Shown here: in pieces, positions 10,165 through 20,827 of the stretch
Layout of the letters: every line of letters begins with the position of its first letter
How positions within the stretch are numbered: the stretch's first letter is position 1
From: Pararhodobacter marinus
GTDB lineage: Bacteria; Pseudomonadota; Alphaproteobacteria; Rhodobacterales; Rhodobacteraceae
Direction: 5' to 3'
Assembly (NCBI RefSeq): GCF_003122215.1
Contig: NZ_QEYD01000005.1
Coordinates: 124,001 to 188,000, forward strand
DNA length: 64,000 nt
The notes under the pieces: generated by a model
What the model was told of the DNA's origin: nothing
Seen by the model: the letters and a program-made list of their open reading frames with translations, nothing else
Databases searched by the model: none
Program-made: the position numbers and the translations under genes

Positions 10165-11349
10165 TCAGCCGGCGTTTCCGGCGCGGCGTTCAAGCCACAC
10201 CGCCGCGATCCCCGCCGCCAGCGCCAGCATCAGAACCGTCAGGATCACGCCCAGCAAAAGCCCGGGCGTGGGATGGGCGGCCACCGCCTGCAGCGTCAGC
10301 GCTGTCAGCGCCGCGCCCATTCCCATGCCGAAGGCGCCGAACAGGCTGGAAGCGGTGCCCGCCAGATCGGGACGCACCGACACCGCGCCCGTGGCTGCGT
10401 TCGCGACCGTCAGCCCGTTGCCGAATCCCGCGCTCAGCGTGCAGCCGAACAGTACCAGCGGCGAGGTCGCACCGCCCCAGAACAGCAGGAAACCGAGCCC
10501 CACGCCCAGAACCGCCACGCAGCGCCCGGCGATGATCAGCGGCCCCAGGCCCAGCCTCGGGGCCATGCGCGCGGTGATCAGCGCGCCCAGGATGAAGCCC
10601 GCGGTGATCGACCCGGTGCCCAGCCCGATCCACAGGCTGGACAGGTGCCAATAATCCACCGCGACAAAGGACACGCCCGAGATGAAGACGTAAAACGATC
10701 CCAGCGACAGGCCCCCCGTCGCGGTATAGGCCCAGAACCGCGCCGAGCGCAGGAGCGCGCCGTAATCGCCGGCCCGCAGGCGTCTTTTGCCGGGCTTCAG
10801 CGTCTCGCCCAGATCGAGCCAGCACAGCACCAGGCCCGCCGCCCCCAGCGCCGCGTAGAGCCCGAAGATCGCGCGCCAGCCGATGACGCTATCCAGAAGC
10901 CCGCCGATCGTCGGCCCCAGCATCGGCGCCAATGCCATCGAGGCGCTGACCGTGCCCATGCGCCCGGCCGCGTGGCGCGGGTCGAACAGGTCGCGGATGA
11001 TCGCCGCCGACAGGACCGTTCCCGCCGCAATTGCTCCCTGTAGCAGGCGAAAGGCGATGAAAAGGTTCGCGTCCCGGGCCAGGACACAACCGAGCGAGGC
11101 CAGCGTATAGACCCCCAGCGCGCTCAGGATCACGGGCCGCCGCCCGATCCGGTCGCTGAGCGGCCCGAGCGCCAGCTGCATCAGCGCCGTCAGCACCATG
11201 TAGCCCGACACGACCCAGGCCATGCGCGCCTCGGTGGCCTGCAGGGCCCGGGTCATCGCCGGCAGCGACGGCAGGAACATGTTGAGCGTGACGACGGGCA
11301 GGGCGGTCAGCAGAACCAGCGTCGCAAGATGGGGAGGCGTTCGTGTCAT
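10165..11349 (-). CDS. Bcr/CflA-type multidrug MFS transporter
   Basis: A 394-residue inner-membrane protein with 12 predicted hydrophobic segments. Motif A of the drug:H+ antiporters is visible as GPLSDRIGRRPV, and the motif C-like stretch APMLGPTIGGLL follows in TM5. The PxLPAM segment after TM1 (FLPSLPAMTRAL) is typical of Bcr/CflA transporters. The start MTRTPPH at 11349 is chosen because the preceding in-frame residues are not hydrophobic or conserved. The substrate is unknown. The gene is divergent from the ABC-F ATPase, separated by about 160 bases. Confidence 0.9.
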   Translation of the reverse strand: MTRTPPHLATLVLLTALPVVTLNMFLPSLPAMTRALQATEARMAWVVSGYMVLTALMQLALGPLSDRIGRRPVILSALGVYTLASLGCVLARDANLFIAFRLLQGAIAAGTVLSAAIIRDLFDPRHAAGRMGTVSASMALAPMLGPTIGGLLDSVIGWRAIFGLYAALGAAGLVLCWLDLGETLKPGKRRLRAGDYGALLRSARFWAYTATGGLSLGSFYVFISGVSFVAVDYWHLSSLWIGLGTGSITAGFILGALITARMAPRLGLGPLIIAGRCVAVLGVGLGFLLFWGGATSPLVLFGCTLSAGFGNGLTVANAATGAVSVRPDLAGTASSLFGAFGMGMGAALTALTLQAVAAHPTPGLLLGVILTVLMLALAAGIAAVWLERRAGNAG

Positions 11350-15750: not shown

Positions 15751-16239
15751 TCAGGCGGGGACTGCTTGCGCCTGCGCGCAGCGTGCTGTGCTGACGCGGC
15801 GCGTGCAGTCTTCCAGGGACAGGATCGCCTCGAGCCCCTCGTTGCAATCGGTCAGCTCGCCCAGCGTCACCGGATCGAGCGAGGCATAGAAGCTTTCGAC
15901 CGCACGGGTCAGGTGCTGGGACATCCGGCAGACACCCTTGAGCGGGCAGGTATTGTCCTCGGAGAAACACTCGATAAAGGGCAGCTCGGCCTCGAAGGCG
16001 CGAAACACCGCGCCGACCGAGATTTCCGCCGCCGGACGCGCCAGCGAGAAGCCGCCGTGGCGTCCGCGCAACGTGGTGATGAAGCCCGATTGCCCAAGTT
16101 GGTTGACGACCTGCGCCAGGTGGTTCTCGGAGGCGTTGATCGCCTTGGCCACGTCGCTCTTGCGGACGATCCGCTCGGGATTGACGGCGCAGACCATCAG
16201 GGTGCGCAGGGCAAGATTGGTTCGGGTGGTCAGACGCAT
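15751..16239 (-). CDS. Rrf2-family Fe-S regulator, NsrR-like
   Basis: A 162-residue winged-helix regulator. The N-terminal MRLTTRTNLALRTLMVC and ENHLAQVVNQLGQSGFITTLRGRHGGFSLARP match Rrf2 DNA-binding domains. Three cysteines, C91-x6-C98-x5-C104, match the cluster ligands of NsrR and IscR, and the overall sequence is closest to NsrR. NsrR represses nitric-oxide detoxification genes and is derepressed when NO destroys its cluster. The start at 16239 is favoured because GGAG lies just upstream, inside a longer in-frame start at 16251. A perfect FNR box lies 82 bases upstream, suggesting oxygen or NO control of the regulator. No NO-detoxification gene is adjacent. Confidence 0.85.
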   Translation of the reverse strand: MRLTTRTNLALRTLMVCAVNPERIVRKSDVAKAINASENHLAQVVNQLGQSGFITTLRGRHGGFSLARPAAEISVGAVFRAFEAELPFIECFSEDNTCPLKGVCRMSQHLTRAVESFYASLDPVTLGELTDCNEGLEAILSLEDCTRRVSTARCAQAQAVPA

Positions 16240-16320
16240 CGCATTCTCCAAAACACCGGACAGGGCGCGGCCGGGACCGCTTTGATACGTCCAGGGGACA
16301 GGTTAATCGGCGCTGCCGCC

Positions 16321-16491: not shown

Positions 16492-17430
16492 ATGCGCTCG
16501 ACCCTTCTTGCCGCCGTCTTCGCCATGCTCGGCTGCACGATGCTGGTTGCGGGCACTACGCTGATTGCCAAGGCGCTGGGCAGCGGCGCGCTGGGCCAGC
16601 AGGTCCATCCGCTGATGATCAGCCAGTCGCGCTTTCTGTGGGGCTTCATCGCGGTTGCGTTGTTCCTGGGGCTGCGCCGGGCTACCGGACGCCAGCCATG
16701 GCGCCAGAGCGCGGATACACCGCGCCCGCATTACCGCCGCCACCTGATCCGCACGATGCTGGGCTATACCGGCGGCGGGCTGATGTTCGCGGCCTCGGCG
16801 CATCTGCCGCTGGCCGATGCCAACGCGCTGAGCTTTACCAGCCCGGTGGCGACGATGGCATTCGCGATCCTGGTTCTGGGTGAAAGGGTCGGGCCGTGGC
16901 GCTGGGCGGCGGCCTGCATCGCCATGGCGGGTGCGGCCATCCTGCTACGGCCCGGCGCGGGCGTGATCCAGCCTGCCGCGCTCTTGGCGCTGGGGGCGGC
17001 CGTCTGCATGGGGATCGAGAACATCTTCATCAAGCGGCTTGCCACCTCGGAACCCTTCGGACGCACGATGCTGATCAACAACGCGATGGGGATGGGGATC
17101 TCGGCGGTGATCGCCACGCCGGTGCTGACCTGGCCGGAAAGCCCGCAGGTCTGGGCCGCCCTTGTCGGGATCGGCGTCGTCATGGTCAGCGCGCAGATCC
17201 TGCTTCTGACCGCGAACAGGCTGGCCGATGTCAGCTTCGTCGCGCCCTTCTTCTACATCACGCTGGTCTGGGCGGCGTTCTACGATATCGCCGTATTCGG
17301 TCTGTGGCCCGATGCGGTCAGCATCACCGGCGCCTGCATCGTCGTGGCGGGCGGGCTGCTGATGACATGGCGCGAGGTGCGTGCAGGCCGCCGCACGCTG
17401 CCCGGCGCCACCGGCAACGCGCTGCGCTGA
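16492..17430 (+). CDS. EamA (DMT) family transporter
   Basis: A 312-residue inner-membrane protein with about ten hydrophobic segments arranged as two EamA halves. Recognisable blocks are LPLADANALSFTSPVATMAFAILVLGERVG in the first half and RLADVSFVAPFFYITLVWAAFYDIAVFGLWPD in the second. These match the S-adenosylmethionine/permease-like RhaT branch of the DMT superfamily; the substrate cannot be deduced. The ATG at 16492 is chosen because it directly precedes the first hydrophobic segment; the frame is open upstream but not conserved in character. A perfect FNR box lies about 160 bases upstream. Confidence 0.87.
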   Translation: MRSTLLAAVFAMLGCTMLVAGTTLIAKALGSGALGQQVHPLMISQSRFLWGFIAVALFLGLRRATGRQPWRQSADTPRPHYRRHLIRTMLGYTGGGLMFAASAHLPLADANALSFTSPVATMAFAILVLGERVGPWRWAAACIAMAGAAILLRPGAGVIQPAALLALGAAVCMGIENIFIKRLATSEPFGRTMLINNAMGMGISAVIATPVLTWPESPQVWAALVGIGVVMVSAQILLLTANRLADVSFVAPFFYITLVWAAFYDIAVFGLWPDAVSITGACIVVAGGLLMTWREVRAGRRTLPGATGNALR

Positions 17431-17470
17431 ACGCTTGCGCGAGGCCCGCGCCGGTGCTATCCGACCTGCC

Positions 17471-17512
17471 ATGACCACGCTGCGCATCATCATCTGCTGC
17501 ATTACCCGCTGA
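17471..17512 (+). CDS. Candidate cysteine leader peptide of cysS
   Basis: A 13-codon ORF, MTTLRIIICCITR, ends 99 bases before cysS. It has tandem Cys codons (17495-17500) preceded by three Ile codons. Tandem rare-amino-acid codons in a short ORF just upstream of the matching tRNA synthetase are the hallmark of ribosome-mediated attenuation. The following RNA can form competing hairpins (see 17522-17579). There is no strong ribosome-binding site in front (ACCTGCC), which weakens the call. It is too short to be recognised by composition. Confidence 0.6.
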   Translation: MTTLRIIICCITR

Positions 17513-17521
17513 GCTTTGGCT

Positions 17522-17579
17522 CGCGCGGGGCGTTGTCTTTTCCTCATGAGAAGCGCATAGCCCACCCCGCGCGGGGGTG
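17522..17579 (+). promoter_or_regulatory. Candidate attenuator with mutually exclusive hairpins before cysS
   Basis: CGCGCGGGG (17522-17530) is perfectly complementary to CCCCGCGCG (17565-17573), a long-range 9-bp stem. The same C-rich strand can instead form the local hairpin CACCCC (17563-17568) / GGGGTG (17574-17579). The two structures cannot coexist. The local hairpin is followed by CCCGATTTGT, only a weak U-run, so control may be by transcription termination or by RBS access (GGGGAGACGACC just before the cysS ATG). Confidence 0.5.
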
Positions 17580-17611
17580 CCCGATTTGTCGCGATCAGGG
17601 GAGACGACCAC

Positions 17612-19027
17612 ATGACGGCTATCCGCCTCTACAACACCCGCACCCGCGCGAAGGAAGACTTCGCGCCTTCGGATCCGGGCAATGTGCGGATGTATGTCTG
17701 CGGCCCGACCGTCTATGACCGCGCGCATCTGGGCAATGCCCGGCCCGTGCTGGTCTTCGACACGCTGTTCCGGCTTCTGCGCCATGTCTACGGCGAGGAT
17801 CACGTCACCTACGTGCGCAACTTCACCGACGTCGACGACAAGATCAACGCGACCGCGCTGGCGCGCAAGGAGGCGGGCGCCGAGGGCACGCTGGAAGAGC
17901 TGATCCACCAGCGCACGCAGGAAACCATCGGCTGGTATCACGCCGATATGGGCGCGCTGGGCGCGCTGACGCCCACGCATGAGCCGCGCGCGACCGCGTA
18001 TATCGGCGCGATGATCGCGATGATCGAGGACCTGATCGCCAGAGGCCACGCCTATGCGGTCGACGGGCATGTGCTGTTCAAGGTCCGCTCGTATCCCGAT
18101 TACGGCAAGCTGTCGGGCCGCTCGGTCGATGACATGATCGCGGGCGCCCGCGTCGAGGTCGCTCCCTACAAGGACGACCCGATGGATTTCGTGCTGTGGA
18201 AGCCCTCGGATGCCGGGCTGCCGGGCTGGGACAGCCCGTGGGGCCGGGGGCGTCCGGGCTGGCATATCGAGTGCTCGGCCATGTCCTACGAGTTGCTGGG
18301 CCCGTCCTTCGACATCCATGGCGGCGGGATCGACCTGCAATTCCCCCACCACGAGAACGAGATCGCGCAAAGCTGCTGCGCCCATCCGGACGGCGGCTTC
18401 GCGCGGGTCTGGATGCATAACGAGATGCTGCTGGTCGAGGGCAAGAAGATGTCCAAGTCGCTGGGCAACTTCTTCACCGTGCGCGAGCTGCTGGACCAGG
18501 GCTATCCGGGCGAGGTGATCCGCTTCGTCATGCTGTCCACGCATTACCGCAAGCCGATGGACTGGACGGCCGAGCGCGCGCGCGAGGCCGAGGGCATCCT
18601 GCGCGGCTGGCGCGCCATGGTCGCGGAGGCCGAGCCCACCGGACCCGACGCCGAGATCGTCGAGGCGCTGGCTGACGACCTGAACGTCGCCGGTGCGATG
18701 GCCCGGCTGCACGCACTGGCCAAGGCGATCGCTGCCAACCCGCAAAAGGACTGTTTCTACGAGAAAGGCGTCTTCCTTGCCTCGGCCCGTCTTCTGGGCC
18801 TGTTGGAGGACGGGATGGGCGACTGGGCGCGGGGCGTGGACCTGTCGGGCCTTGCCGACAAGCTGGCGCGACTGCGCGCGGCCGCGATGGAGACCAAGGA
18901 TTTCGCCCCGGTGGATGCGCTGAAAGCGGCGCTGATCGCGGCGGGGGTCGAGGTGCGGATGTCGAAAGCGGGGGTCGAGCTGGTCCCTGGCGCAGGGTTC
19001 GACCCGGCCAGGCTGGAGGGGTTGTGA
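17612..19027 (+). CDS. cysS: Cysteinyl-tRNA synthetase
   Basis: A 471-residue class I synthetase. [19 protein letters not shown] holds the zinc ligand Cys30 and the HIGH-type motif HLGN (39-42). The remaining zinc ligands sit in HIECSAM (Cys221) and FPHHENE (about 245-250). KMSKS is at 279-283, and the DALR-type anticodon region forms the C-terminal third. It charges tRNA-Cys. It is a single gene with a leader ORF and candidate attenuator upstream and a dispersed repeat between it and cimA. Confidence 0.97.
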
Positions 19028-19135: not shown

Positions 19136-19204
19136 CCCGGGGAGCGGGGGGGCGGCGATTTTCCTGCCGGCCTGCGGTGTTTGCGATGTGAAAGGGGGTG
19201 CGGC

Positions 19205-20827
19205 GTGACCGAGCGGCTCTATCTCTATGACACCACCCTGCGCGACGGGCAGCAGACGCAGGGGGTGCAGTTCTCGACCCCCGAGAAGCGGGTGATTGCC
19301 GCCGCGCTCGACGAGCTGGGCGTGGACTACATCGAAGGCGGCTGGCCGGGTGCGAACCCGACCGACAGCGAGTTCTTCGAGGCCAGGCCCGATCTGCGCG
19401 CCACCTTCACCGCCTTCGGCATGACCAAGCGCGCCGGGCGCTCGGCCGGGAATGACGAGGTGCTGGCGGCGGTGATGAATGCGGGCACGCGCGCGGTCTG
19501 CCTGGTGGGGAAGACGCATGATTTCCACGTCACAACGGCCCTGGGCATCACGCTTGAGGAAAACCTGGAGAATATCCGCGCCTCGGTCGCGCATATGGTC
19601 GCGCAGGGGCGCGAGGCGCTGTTCGATGCCGAGCATTTCTTCGACGGCTACCGGGCCAGTCCCGGTTACGCGCTGTCCTGCTGCAAGGCGGCTTACGAGG
19701 CGGGCGCGCGCTGGGTGGTCCTGTGCGACACCAATGGCGGCACCTTGCCCGCCGAGGTCGGGCGCATCGTGAGCGAGGTGATCGCTGCGGGCATACCGGG
19801 CGAGCGGCTGGGCATCCATTGTCACGACGATACCGGCAATGCGGTGGCCTGTTCGCTGGCGGCGGTCGATGCGGGCGCGCGGCAGATCCAGGGGACGCTC
19901 AACGGTCTGGGCGAGCGTTGCGGCAACGCCAACCTGACCAGCCTGATCCCGACGCTGTTGCTGAAGGAACCCTATGCCAGTGCCTATGAGACCGGCGTCA
20001 CGCGCGAGGGGCTGACGGGCCTTGTGCGGCTGTCGCGCAAGCTCGACGATATCCTGAACCGGGTGCCGCTGCGTTCGGCGCCCTATGTCGGGGCGTCGGC
20101 CTTTGCCCACAAGGCGGGGCTGCATGCCAGCGCGATCCTGAAGGACCCGACCACCTACGAGCATATCGCCCCCGAATGGGTCGGCAATACCCGGCTCATC
20201 CCGATGTCGAACCAGGCCGGGCAGTCGAATCTGCGCGCGCGGCTGCAGGCGGCGGGGATCGAGGTTGCGGCGGGCGATCCGCGGCTGGCGCAGATCCTGG
20301 ACGAGGTCAAGCTGCGCGAGGATCAGGGCTATGCCTATGACGGCGCCCAGGCCTCGTTCGATCTGCTGGCGCGCGAGCAGCTGGGCCTTCTGCCGCGTTT
20401 CTTCGAGATCAAGCGCTACCGCGTCACGGTCGAGCGGCGCAAGAACCGCTATGACCAGATGGTCAGCGTCTCCGAGGCTGTGGTCGTGGTGAAGATCGGC
20501 GACACCAAGACGCTGTCGGTCAGCGAAAGCGTCGATGAAAGCGGCACCGACCGGGGCCCGGTCAACGCGCTGTCCAAGGCGCTGGCGAAGGATCTGGGGC
20601 CGTACCAGGCGTCGATCGACGACATGAAGCTGGTCGATTTCCGCGTGCGGATCACGCAGGGCGGGACCGAGGCCGTGACCCGCGTCATCATCGACAGCGA
20701 GGACGGCAAGGGTCAGCGCTGGTCGACGGTGGGGGTGAGCCCGAACATCGTGGACGCGTCCTTTACCGCGTTGCTGGACGCGATCCGCTGGAAGCTGTTG
20801 CGCGACGGGGTCGAGCCGCAGATGTGA
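19205..20827 (+). CDS. cimA: (R)-citramalate synthase
   Basis: A 540-residue LeuA-like enzyme. The N-terminal HMGL-like TIM barrel opens with YLYDTTLRDGQQTQGVQFS (metal-binding Asp9), and HCHDDTGNAVA and NGLGERCGNANL are the other catalytic blocks. The C-terminal part contains a LeuA dimerisation/regulatory domain (about 400-535). The DGQQTQG motif and YIEGGWPGANPTD separate CimA from 2-isopropylmalate synthase (which has DGEQ). It condenses pyruvate and acetyl-CoA to citramalate, a threonine-independent route to 2-oxobutanoate for isoleucine. The GTG start at 19205 has AAAGGGGG seven bases upstream. Confidence 0.9.
   Translation: MTERLYLYDTTLRDGQQTQGVQFSTPEKRVIAAALDELGVDYIEGGWPGANPTDSEFFEARPDLRATFTAFGMTKRAGRSAGNDEVLAAVMNAGTRAVCLVGKTHDFHVTTALGITLEENLENIRASVAHMVAQGREALFDAEHFFDGYRASPGYALSCCKAAYEAGARWVVLCDTNGGTLPAEVGRIVSEVIAAGIPGERLGIHCHDDTGNAVACSLAAVDAGARQIQGTLNGLGERCGNANLTSLIPTLLLKEPYASAYETGVTREGLTGLVRLSRKLDDILNRVPLRSAPYVGASAFAHKAGLHASAILKDPTTYEHIAPEWVGNTRLIPMSNQAGQSNLRARLQAAGIEVAAGDPRLAQILDEVKLREDQGYAYDGAQASFDLLAREQLGLLPRFFEIKRYRVTVERRKNRYDQMVSVSEAVVVVKIGDTKTLSVSESVDESGTDRGPVNALSKALAKDLGPYQASIDDMKLVDFRVRITQGGTEAVTRVIIDSEDGKGQRWSTVGVSPNIVDASFTALLDAIRWKLLRDGVEPQM

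Follow-up and report, generated by a model that had tools for sequence, protein, structure and literature searches.

A predicted leaderless cysteine attenuator ahead of cysS in Pararhodobacter marinus and its relatives

The 64,000-nucleotide stretch of Pararhodobacter marinus DNA analyzed here (hereafter the window; contig NZ_QEYD01000005.1, positions 124,001 to 188,000) carries on its forward strand the gene for cysteinyl-tRNA synthetase, cysS (17612-19027; Pfam tRNA-synt_1e, E 6e-110), the nearest named relative of whose product comes from Gemmobacter, a genus of the order Rhodobacterales. Just before it, as the original prediction had stated and as direct reading bears out, lies a short ORF on the same strand (17471-17512, MTTLRIIICCITR; called by scripted reading and family alignment), which runs ATG ACC ACG CTG CGC ATC ATC ATC TGC TGC ATT ACC CGC TGA and places two tandem cysteine codons (TGC TGC, 17495-17500), kept in relatives and the putative stall site, at the 9th and 10th of its 13 codons. 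The preceding ORF stops at 17430, so that the leader would have its own intergenic start. By themselves, short ORFs with tandem cysteines are not rare (in the window, 5 of the 265 ATG ORFs with 8-20 codons have them), and the fold stability of the whole leader is ordinary (z -0.71, with 44 of 200 shuffles equally good); what lifts the leader above chance is conservation, namely its covariance-model matches in the genus and the order, rather than the fold or the ORF alone. A scan of 17300-17750 against Rfam at E<=1 returned a single chance-level match to a microRNA family, scoring far under the gathering threshold (21.2 versus 80 bits), and no T-box or other Rfam element. Elsewhere in the neighborhood, an Rrf2-family regulator (15751-16251, reverse strand; PF02082, E 3e-31) is encoded upstream of the gene preceding the leader, and the first long ORF past cysS (19181-20827, forward strand) encodes a LeuA/homocitrate-synthase-like enzyme with HMGL-like and LeuA_dimer domains.

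To place the leader among its relatives, we pooled the cysS upstream regions of 100 family genomes, each from another genus (100 of the 187 in which a match was present, for the most part the top-scoring ones), with those of 80 named cysS loci and the window, for a total of 181 regions, 178 of which are distinct once three duplicates are dropped. A leader was called where an ATG ORF of 10-18 codons carries a cysteine among the four codons before the last and its stop falls 60-190 bases before the cysS match. By this rule the ORF is conserved together with its cysteine codons, a comparison that the original prediction had itself proposed: 144 of the 178 distinct regions have a leader, and six of the remaining 34 also bear a leader-like ORF by eye (L048, L074, L089, L098, L106 and L123). 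Tandem cysteines are found in 104 of the 144 leaders and missing from the other 40, at least two cysteines are present in 131, and 13 have a single one. The codons themselves are exchanged silently, at a TGC:TGT ratio of 371:31 and with cysteine retained, and the peptide outside its Cys/Ile-rich end is highly variable. The five least similar named loci (L077-L081) gave no leader by the rule, L078 offering merely 71 upstream bases.

A covariance model of the leader finds a single strong site in its own genome (E 3e-15, the runner-up at E 0.2), and the four best further matches (L183-L186), considered as extra copies, show no cysteine leader; one of these weak matches, L185, precedes a groEL-like ORF (named by eye). 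The model matches 17 of 18 same-genus genomes at E<=0.01, the weakest being L361, in which no leader is recognized by sequence pattern, and 107 of 121 genomes drawn at the level of the order, the listed ones among them being without exception from the same family. In a class-wide search 14 of 190 genomes were matched, three of them from the window's own family; among the nine loci examined outside that family, only L203 and L204 precede cysS, and L204 is unconvincing. Within the genus, 16 leaders were compared, counting that of the window; 14 of them have tandem cysteines, and L358 and L360 have a single cysteine. The best match of genome G524 (L346) was set aside as being of a different type and on a small contig. 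One same-genus genome features an identical-scoring leader twice on one contig in opposite orientation (L353 and L362; G525:C43:1232-1340 and 10777-10885), which would reflect either an inverted duplication or an assembly artifact.

When the 144 leaders are aligned on their ATG, they feature TTG at -36 to -34, TA at -12/-11 and C at -1 (86%), with no Shine-Dalgarno signal before the ATG across the alignment. In the window the corresponding layout is TTGCGC-N17-TATCCG-ACCTGCC-ATG, that is, a putative promoter P1 with its -35 element at 17435-17440, its -10 element at 17458-17463, a 17-nt spacer and 7 nt between the -10 element and the leader ATG. Ordinary sigma-70 geometry would place the RNA start on or next to the leader AUG. 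TTG-N16-18-TA in the P1 register precedes 105 of 143 leaders and none of 523 other ATGs in the same regions (125 and 3, respectively, with a looser -35), and a Shine-Dalgarno-like core precedes 5 of the 143 leaders versus 111 of 143 cysS genes. L040, mis-called by the ORF rule with its true leader further on, was left out of both the promoter-register and the terminator counts. A stricter E. coli-type consensus scan of 17300-17700 returned no site for P1 or for the second promoter described below, and the assignment of P1 therefore rests on the alignment and not on a match to the E. coli consensus. Overall, the leader ORF looks leaderless, with transcription predicted from the promoter position to start at 17471.

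Downstream of the ORF, a G-rich arm 2 (17519-17530) can pair either with arm 1 at the end of the ORF, through 17519-17529, or with a distal arm 3 (17565-17575), through 17520-17530. The core of the latter pairing is the 9-bp long-range stem that had been claimed at the outset, and the claim is exact: 17565-17573 (CCCCGCGCG) is the precise reverse complement of 17522-17530 (CGCGCGGGG). Folding of 17518-17575 lengthens the 2:3 stem to 11 pairs at -29.6 kcal/mol, matched by 1 of 200 shuffles; the longer stretch 17518-17595 folds ordinarily (80 of 200 equally good). The covariation suggested earlier as a check is likewise present. In the leader alignment, the strongest corrected mutual information among column pairs with >80% occupancy falls on 17524:17571, within the 2:3 stem (GC in 52 sequences, CG in 43). 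A 118-row alignment, obtained from the 144 leaders by removing two by length and 24 by hand (near-relatives and irregular ones), underlies the shuffle-based covariation analyses of the 2:3 and 1:2 stems as well as the second-promoter spacing and absence counts. In it, across the 2:3 stem, 84.6% of cells are paired versus 79.7% after shuffling (0/500), and the covariation score is 0.117 versus 0.063 (0/500), with a slid partner reaching 0.055 at best. Weaker signals come from the two measures that relatedness affects least, with five pairs altered on both sides versus 3.3 in shuffles (21/500) and 13 further pair types versus 10.5 (33/500). In 51 of 80 cases the outermost pair does not form, and RNAalifold returned no consensus structure for the 118 sequences.

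Swap tests, in which each arm is folded with its own or with exchanged partners, point the same way. Own 2:3 arms average -17.35 kcal/mol versus -15.73 with swapped partners (0/2000), and the result holds for all 144 leaders (-17.12 versus -15.40; 0/2000) and for the 26 leaders outside the alignment (-16.38 versus -14.69; 0/2000). Departures in one arm are matched on the opposite side, as in L181 (GGCGCC/GGCGCC) and L110 (CGCGGAC/GTCCGCG). The control pairing of arm 1 with arm 3 also leans in this direction (44/2000), which indicates that relatedness inflates the swap tests. On these comparative grounds, the long-range 2:3 stem coevolves and acts as an evolutionary unit.

The competing structure was unnoticed in the original prediction. 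Arm 1 (17505-17514; assigned from the fold and swap test) comprises the last codons and the stop of the leader, and the resulting 1:2 hairpin (17505-17529) has 10 pairs at -17.9 kcal/mol, with 5 of 200 shuffles equally good; the minimum free energy fold contains it as the second of two stems, after a small one at 17481-17501 that includes the cysteine codons. Across the family, the lower five pairs of the 1:2 hairpin reach 90.3% pairing, and the swap test favors own arms (0/2000); among the 118 sequences the lower stem shows no more covariation than shuffles do. Judging from these comparisons, it is this hairpin, in which the last part of the ORF takes up the G-rich arm 2, that is the conserved rival of the 2:3 stem. 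Past arm 2 comes a U-rich tract (17533-17543, TTGTCTTTTCC), which starts 4 nt beyond the stem, is interrupted, and in relatives overlaps the -35 element of the second promoter; in 132 sequences T reaches 82% at +5 and 40-65% from +6 to +15 past arm 2, against a background of 21%. A terminator-like site is found in the window at 17513-17531, where 0.1 would be expected. Rule-based terminators are matched in 42 of 141 sequences versus 17 in shuffles (19 of 141 versus 8 under a stricter rule), and with a wider permitted gap in 57 versus 31 (stricter, 38 versus 11.7), L040, L069 and L094 being left out of these counts. Such sites are therefore about two- to threefold above shuffles and absent by rule in most sequences, which makes a terminator after 1:2 plausible, though not a textbook one.

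The local hairpin originally proposed to use the same C-rich strand does exist in the window (3:4, 17563-17579, CACCCC.....GGGGUG), but its role as a conserved alternative does not hold up. The stretch 17556-17590 folds no better than chance (63 of 200 shuffles), and own 3:4 pairing is about as good as that with swapped partners both family-wide (621/2000), where the hairpin is rejected as a general alternative, and in the genus, where the signal is weak (492/5000). These values weigh against a classical four-arm attenuator close to the one first envisaged, with 1:2 as pause hairpin, 2:3 as antiterminator and 3:4 (17563-17579) as terminator, and so does the absence of a T run after 3:4 in most genus members, the window itself having just cccgatttg. 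A hairpin starting in arm 3 does fold in about 10 of 16 genus sequences (by eye), and T-rich DNA follows it in four of them (L348, L349, L357 and L359); we nonetheless regard this four-arm arrangement as improbable.

In relatives, the bases of the switch also spell out what resembles a second promoter, P2, of the form TTTTCC-N17-GCTAAGCC (TAAGCC, with GC ahead of its TA), which coincides with the U tract and arm 3. The T-to-T distance is exactly 23 nt in 99 of the 118 aligned sequences, with both TT and TA present in 83. Of 15 genomes that lack the leader ORF and were scored for P2, nine have it at p<0.005 with a spacer of 17 nt (L129, L024 and L050 lack it, and L022, L053 and L151 are marginal). 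Both observations would suit a reading in which there are only two ordinary promoters, P1 and P2 account for the conservation, and the short ORF arises incidentally. Such a reading leaves the cysteine codons and the coevolution of arms 2 and 3 unexplained, and it sits poorly with cysteine leaders in other families (see below) and with the 29 of 118 leader-bearing sequences, window included, that lack P2 by a simple rule and still keep 2:3 coevolution (0/2000); we give it very little credence. Conversely, in 14 genomes without the ORF, whose sites were set by hand-copied sequence tags, the 10 bases before the P2 -35 are less T-rich (0.25 versus 0.41) and 2:3 pairing reaches p<0.05 in only one. 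As each occurs without the other, promoter and switch are separate things sharing bases. The use of P2 as a promoter in relatives is itself something we infer from this layout. In the window, the alignment position of the P2 -10 block (17560-17567) reads GCCCACCC and P2 has no match, so that expression of cysS in the window is probably governed by P1 together with the switch. Among the 16 genus leaders, arm 2 is followed by TTTTCC in eight, TTTCC in five and only TTCC in three, and by eye P2 looks lost in most of them. At L111, L142, L163 and other cysS loci the second promoter is present and the leader absent, and to judge from these sequences there may have been several separate losses of the leader.

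We consider it probable, reasoning from sequence comparison, that the leader is a ribosome-mediated transcription attenuator of cysS responding to cysteine starvation on a leaderless transcript. Transcription from P1 would begin at the first base of the leader AUG, and a ribosome would translate the 13 codons. With ample Cys-tRNA it would reach the UGA and leave, upon which arms 1 and 2 would form their GC-rich hairpin next to the U-rich tract and most P1 transcripts would stop before cysS. With scarce Cys-tRNA, the ribosome would halt at the two cysteine codons with its front edge over arm 1, leaving arm 2 to be captured by arm 3; the 1:2 hairpin would thereby be locked out, and read-through into cysS would yield more synthetase. 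In most aligned relatives, P2 would supply a basal level. The front edge of a ribosome lies about 15 bases beyond its P site. By geometric estimate, an A site on the first or second cysteine codon thus puts that edge at about 17508-17511, and stalling would favor 2:3 because the stalled ribosome covers arm 1 and leaves arm 2 free; a ribosome at the stop codon would by the same estimate keep arm 1 and the first bases of arm 2 covered as long as it is not released.

Because termination at the U tract would precede the synthesis of arm 3, the conservation of arm 3 is not fully explained by this scheme. It would be accounted for if the same sensor had a Rho-dependent output, for which tnaC is a precedent: Rho would load on the C/U-rich segment that separates arm 2 from arm 3, and the 2:3 loop would protect the transcript, so that arm 3 would matter after the U tract. 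The 10 bases before TTTTCC are 72% pyrimidine in sequences with a leader versus 49% in the 14 without, the canonical terminator is weak, and Rho has been proposed for the cysteine leaders of Actinobacteria, mycobacteria included (PMC1262725). A U-rich run past a GC hairpin resembles an intrinsic terminator just as well, and we hold the Rho-dependent variant to be unlikely, if the most credible of the departures from attenuation as set out above. The 2:3 stem acting as a lock after a pause is rated somewhat higher than Rho-dependent termination further downstream.

The original prediction knew of no established cysteine leader for cysS in this group; such a motif is in fact already in print. 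The uORFC-8-2 motif (RNA Biol 2021, PMC8632094) is described there in 145 examples upstream of cysS in Rhodobacterales and read as ribosome-mediated attenuation, and the present locus is, going by that description, an instance of it. Common to both are an AUG uORF with tandem cysteines upstream of cysS and a 3' run of U. In its text uORFC-8-2 has two stems, the first with the cysteine codons, which are "usually at positions 14 and 15" as against the 9th and 10th in the window; in our leaders the first tandem pair falls at codons 9-10 in 52 of 104, at 10-11 in 32 and at 14-15 in one. This mismatch with the published positions is perhaps a matter of counting, and we do not take it as excluding membership. 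An extra GC-rich hairpin seems by eye to lie between leader stop and arm 2 in L097, L100, L105 and L127; these may represent the rare form with three stems to which PMC8632094 refers. The main text of that paper contains neither "leaderless" nor "anti-termin", its lone "antitermin" being in a reference title, and its description, figures aside, includes neither a second promoter nor the arm 2:arm 3 stem. What the present analysis adds to the uORFC-8-2 text is thus the leaderless start, the covarying 2:3 stem, P2 and further families, for which we claim no priority. Within the open-licence literature, the name uORFC-8-2 was found only in PMC8632094, and no experiment on a Rhodobacterales cysS leader was found.

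Three known systems are close in parts. In the alphaproteobacterial trpL attenuator of S. meliloti, according to the text of PMC7298713, transcription starts on the ATG of the leader ORF, which encodes 14 aa; a start on the ATG is predicted here too. Unlike the present case, it has Trp codons, serves a biosynthetic gene and has been studied experimentally. This likeness, a short leader RNA beginning at the AUG (PMC7298713), also lends something to the idea that terminated leader RNA or peptide acts in trans, besides or instead of in cis, as has been reported for S. meliloti rnTrpL/peTrpL. The peptide varies widely outside its Cys/Ile-rich end, and such a trans role seems to us remote. Leaderless polycysteine ORFs of mycobacteria (Canestrari 2020, cited by PMC13236596 and PMC9031893) resemble the window leader in their consecutive cysteine codons and in the cysteine-responsive attenuation predicted for it; they differ in serving cysteine biosynthetic genes, and the citing papers describe control of translation. 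The leader peptides of Actinobacteria (PMC1262725) are likewise short ORFs with runs of cysteine codons near the stop, but they stand before the cys operon and cbs and lack conserved terminator hairpins, and the word cysS does not occur in the main text of that paper.

PMC8632094 gives uORFC-8-2, in its text, as occurring exclusively in Rhodobacterales. Beyond this order, we sampled 100 cysS upstream regions from other alphaproteobacterial families (100 of the 179 with a cysS match, two of the regions being incomplete), and ORFs with CC or CxC were present in 18 of them versus 6.55 in shuffles. By eye, five of the 18, as well as two from a looser list, are likely out-of-frame reads of the upstream coding region. 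On closer sampling, two families of the same class as the window and of a different order, f146 and f121, hold up at the sequence level with differing cysteine-rich cysS leaders. In f146, 9 of the 30 genomes giving the locus have a cysteine-rich short ORF, that of L334 looking accidental. In its genus g392 such an ORF is present in all five genomes (e.g., MFVRAFSPCCCACCCR and MNLPAFTVSCCWTCCR), each time behind TTG-N17-TA, and 6-7 bases separate the end of the -10 hexamer from the ATG (for L330, counted to the inner one of its two ATGs); L337, from another f146 genus, has the same promoter-ORF arrangement, and L340, also of f146, has a Shine-Dalgarno-like core in addition. In f121 the peptide pattern M..AAT..CICC.IIIS recurs in 4 of 4 genomes; TTGATT is spaced roughly as required, but TA is missing from the -10, so that a leaderless start can be proposed no more than tentatively for these leaders. 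As the peptides differ and share mainly their cysteine codons, the decoding of cysteine would be what counts.

Taken together, we give roughly even chances to the full picture, in which a leaderless three-arm cysteine attenuator is nested in P2, with the U tract serving as -35 and the antitermination arm as -10/discriminator, some lineages retain the promoter alone, some the switch alone and some the two together, and cysS acquired cysteine leaders several times over in Alphaproteobacteria, including outside the order of the published motif. If the attenuator is borne out, an aminoacyl-tRNA synthetase would be controlled by its own charged tRNA via a leaderless leader in Alphaproteobacteria. 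A motif from a computational survey becomes a testable design, with a start, stall codons and three arms for which the effects of single and compensatory mutations are predicted, and the overlap of switch and P2, each also found alone, would offer a natural experiment on attenuators added to or replacing promoters. Finally, in L316 and L328 of f146 the cysteine-rich ORF ahead of cysS has a Shine-Dalgarno-like core and lacks a promoter of the leaderless type.
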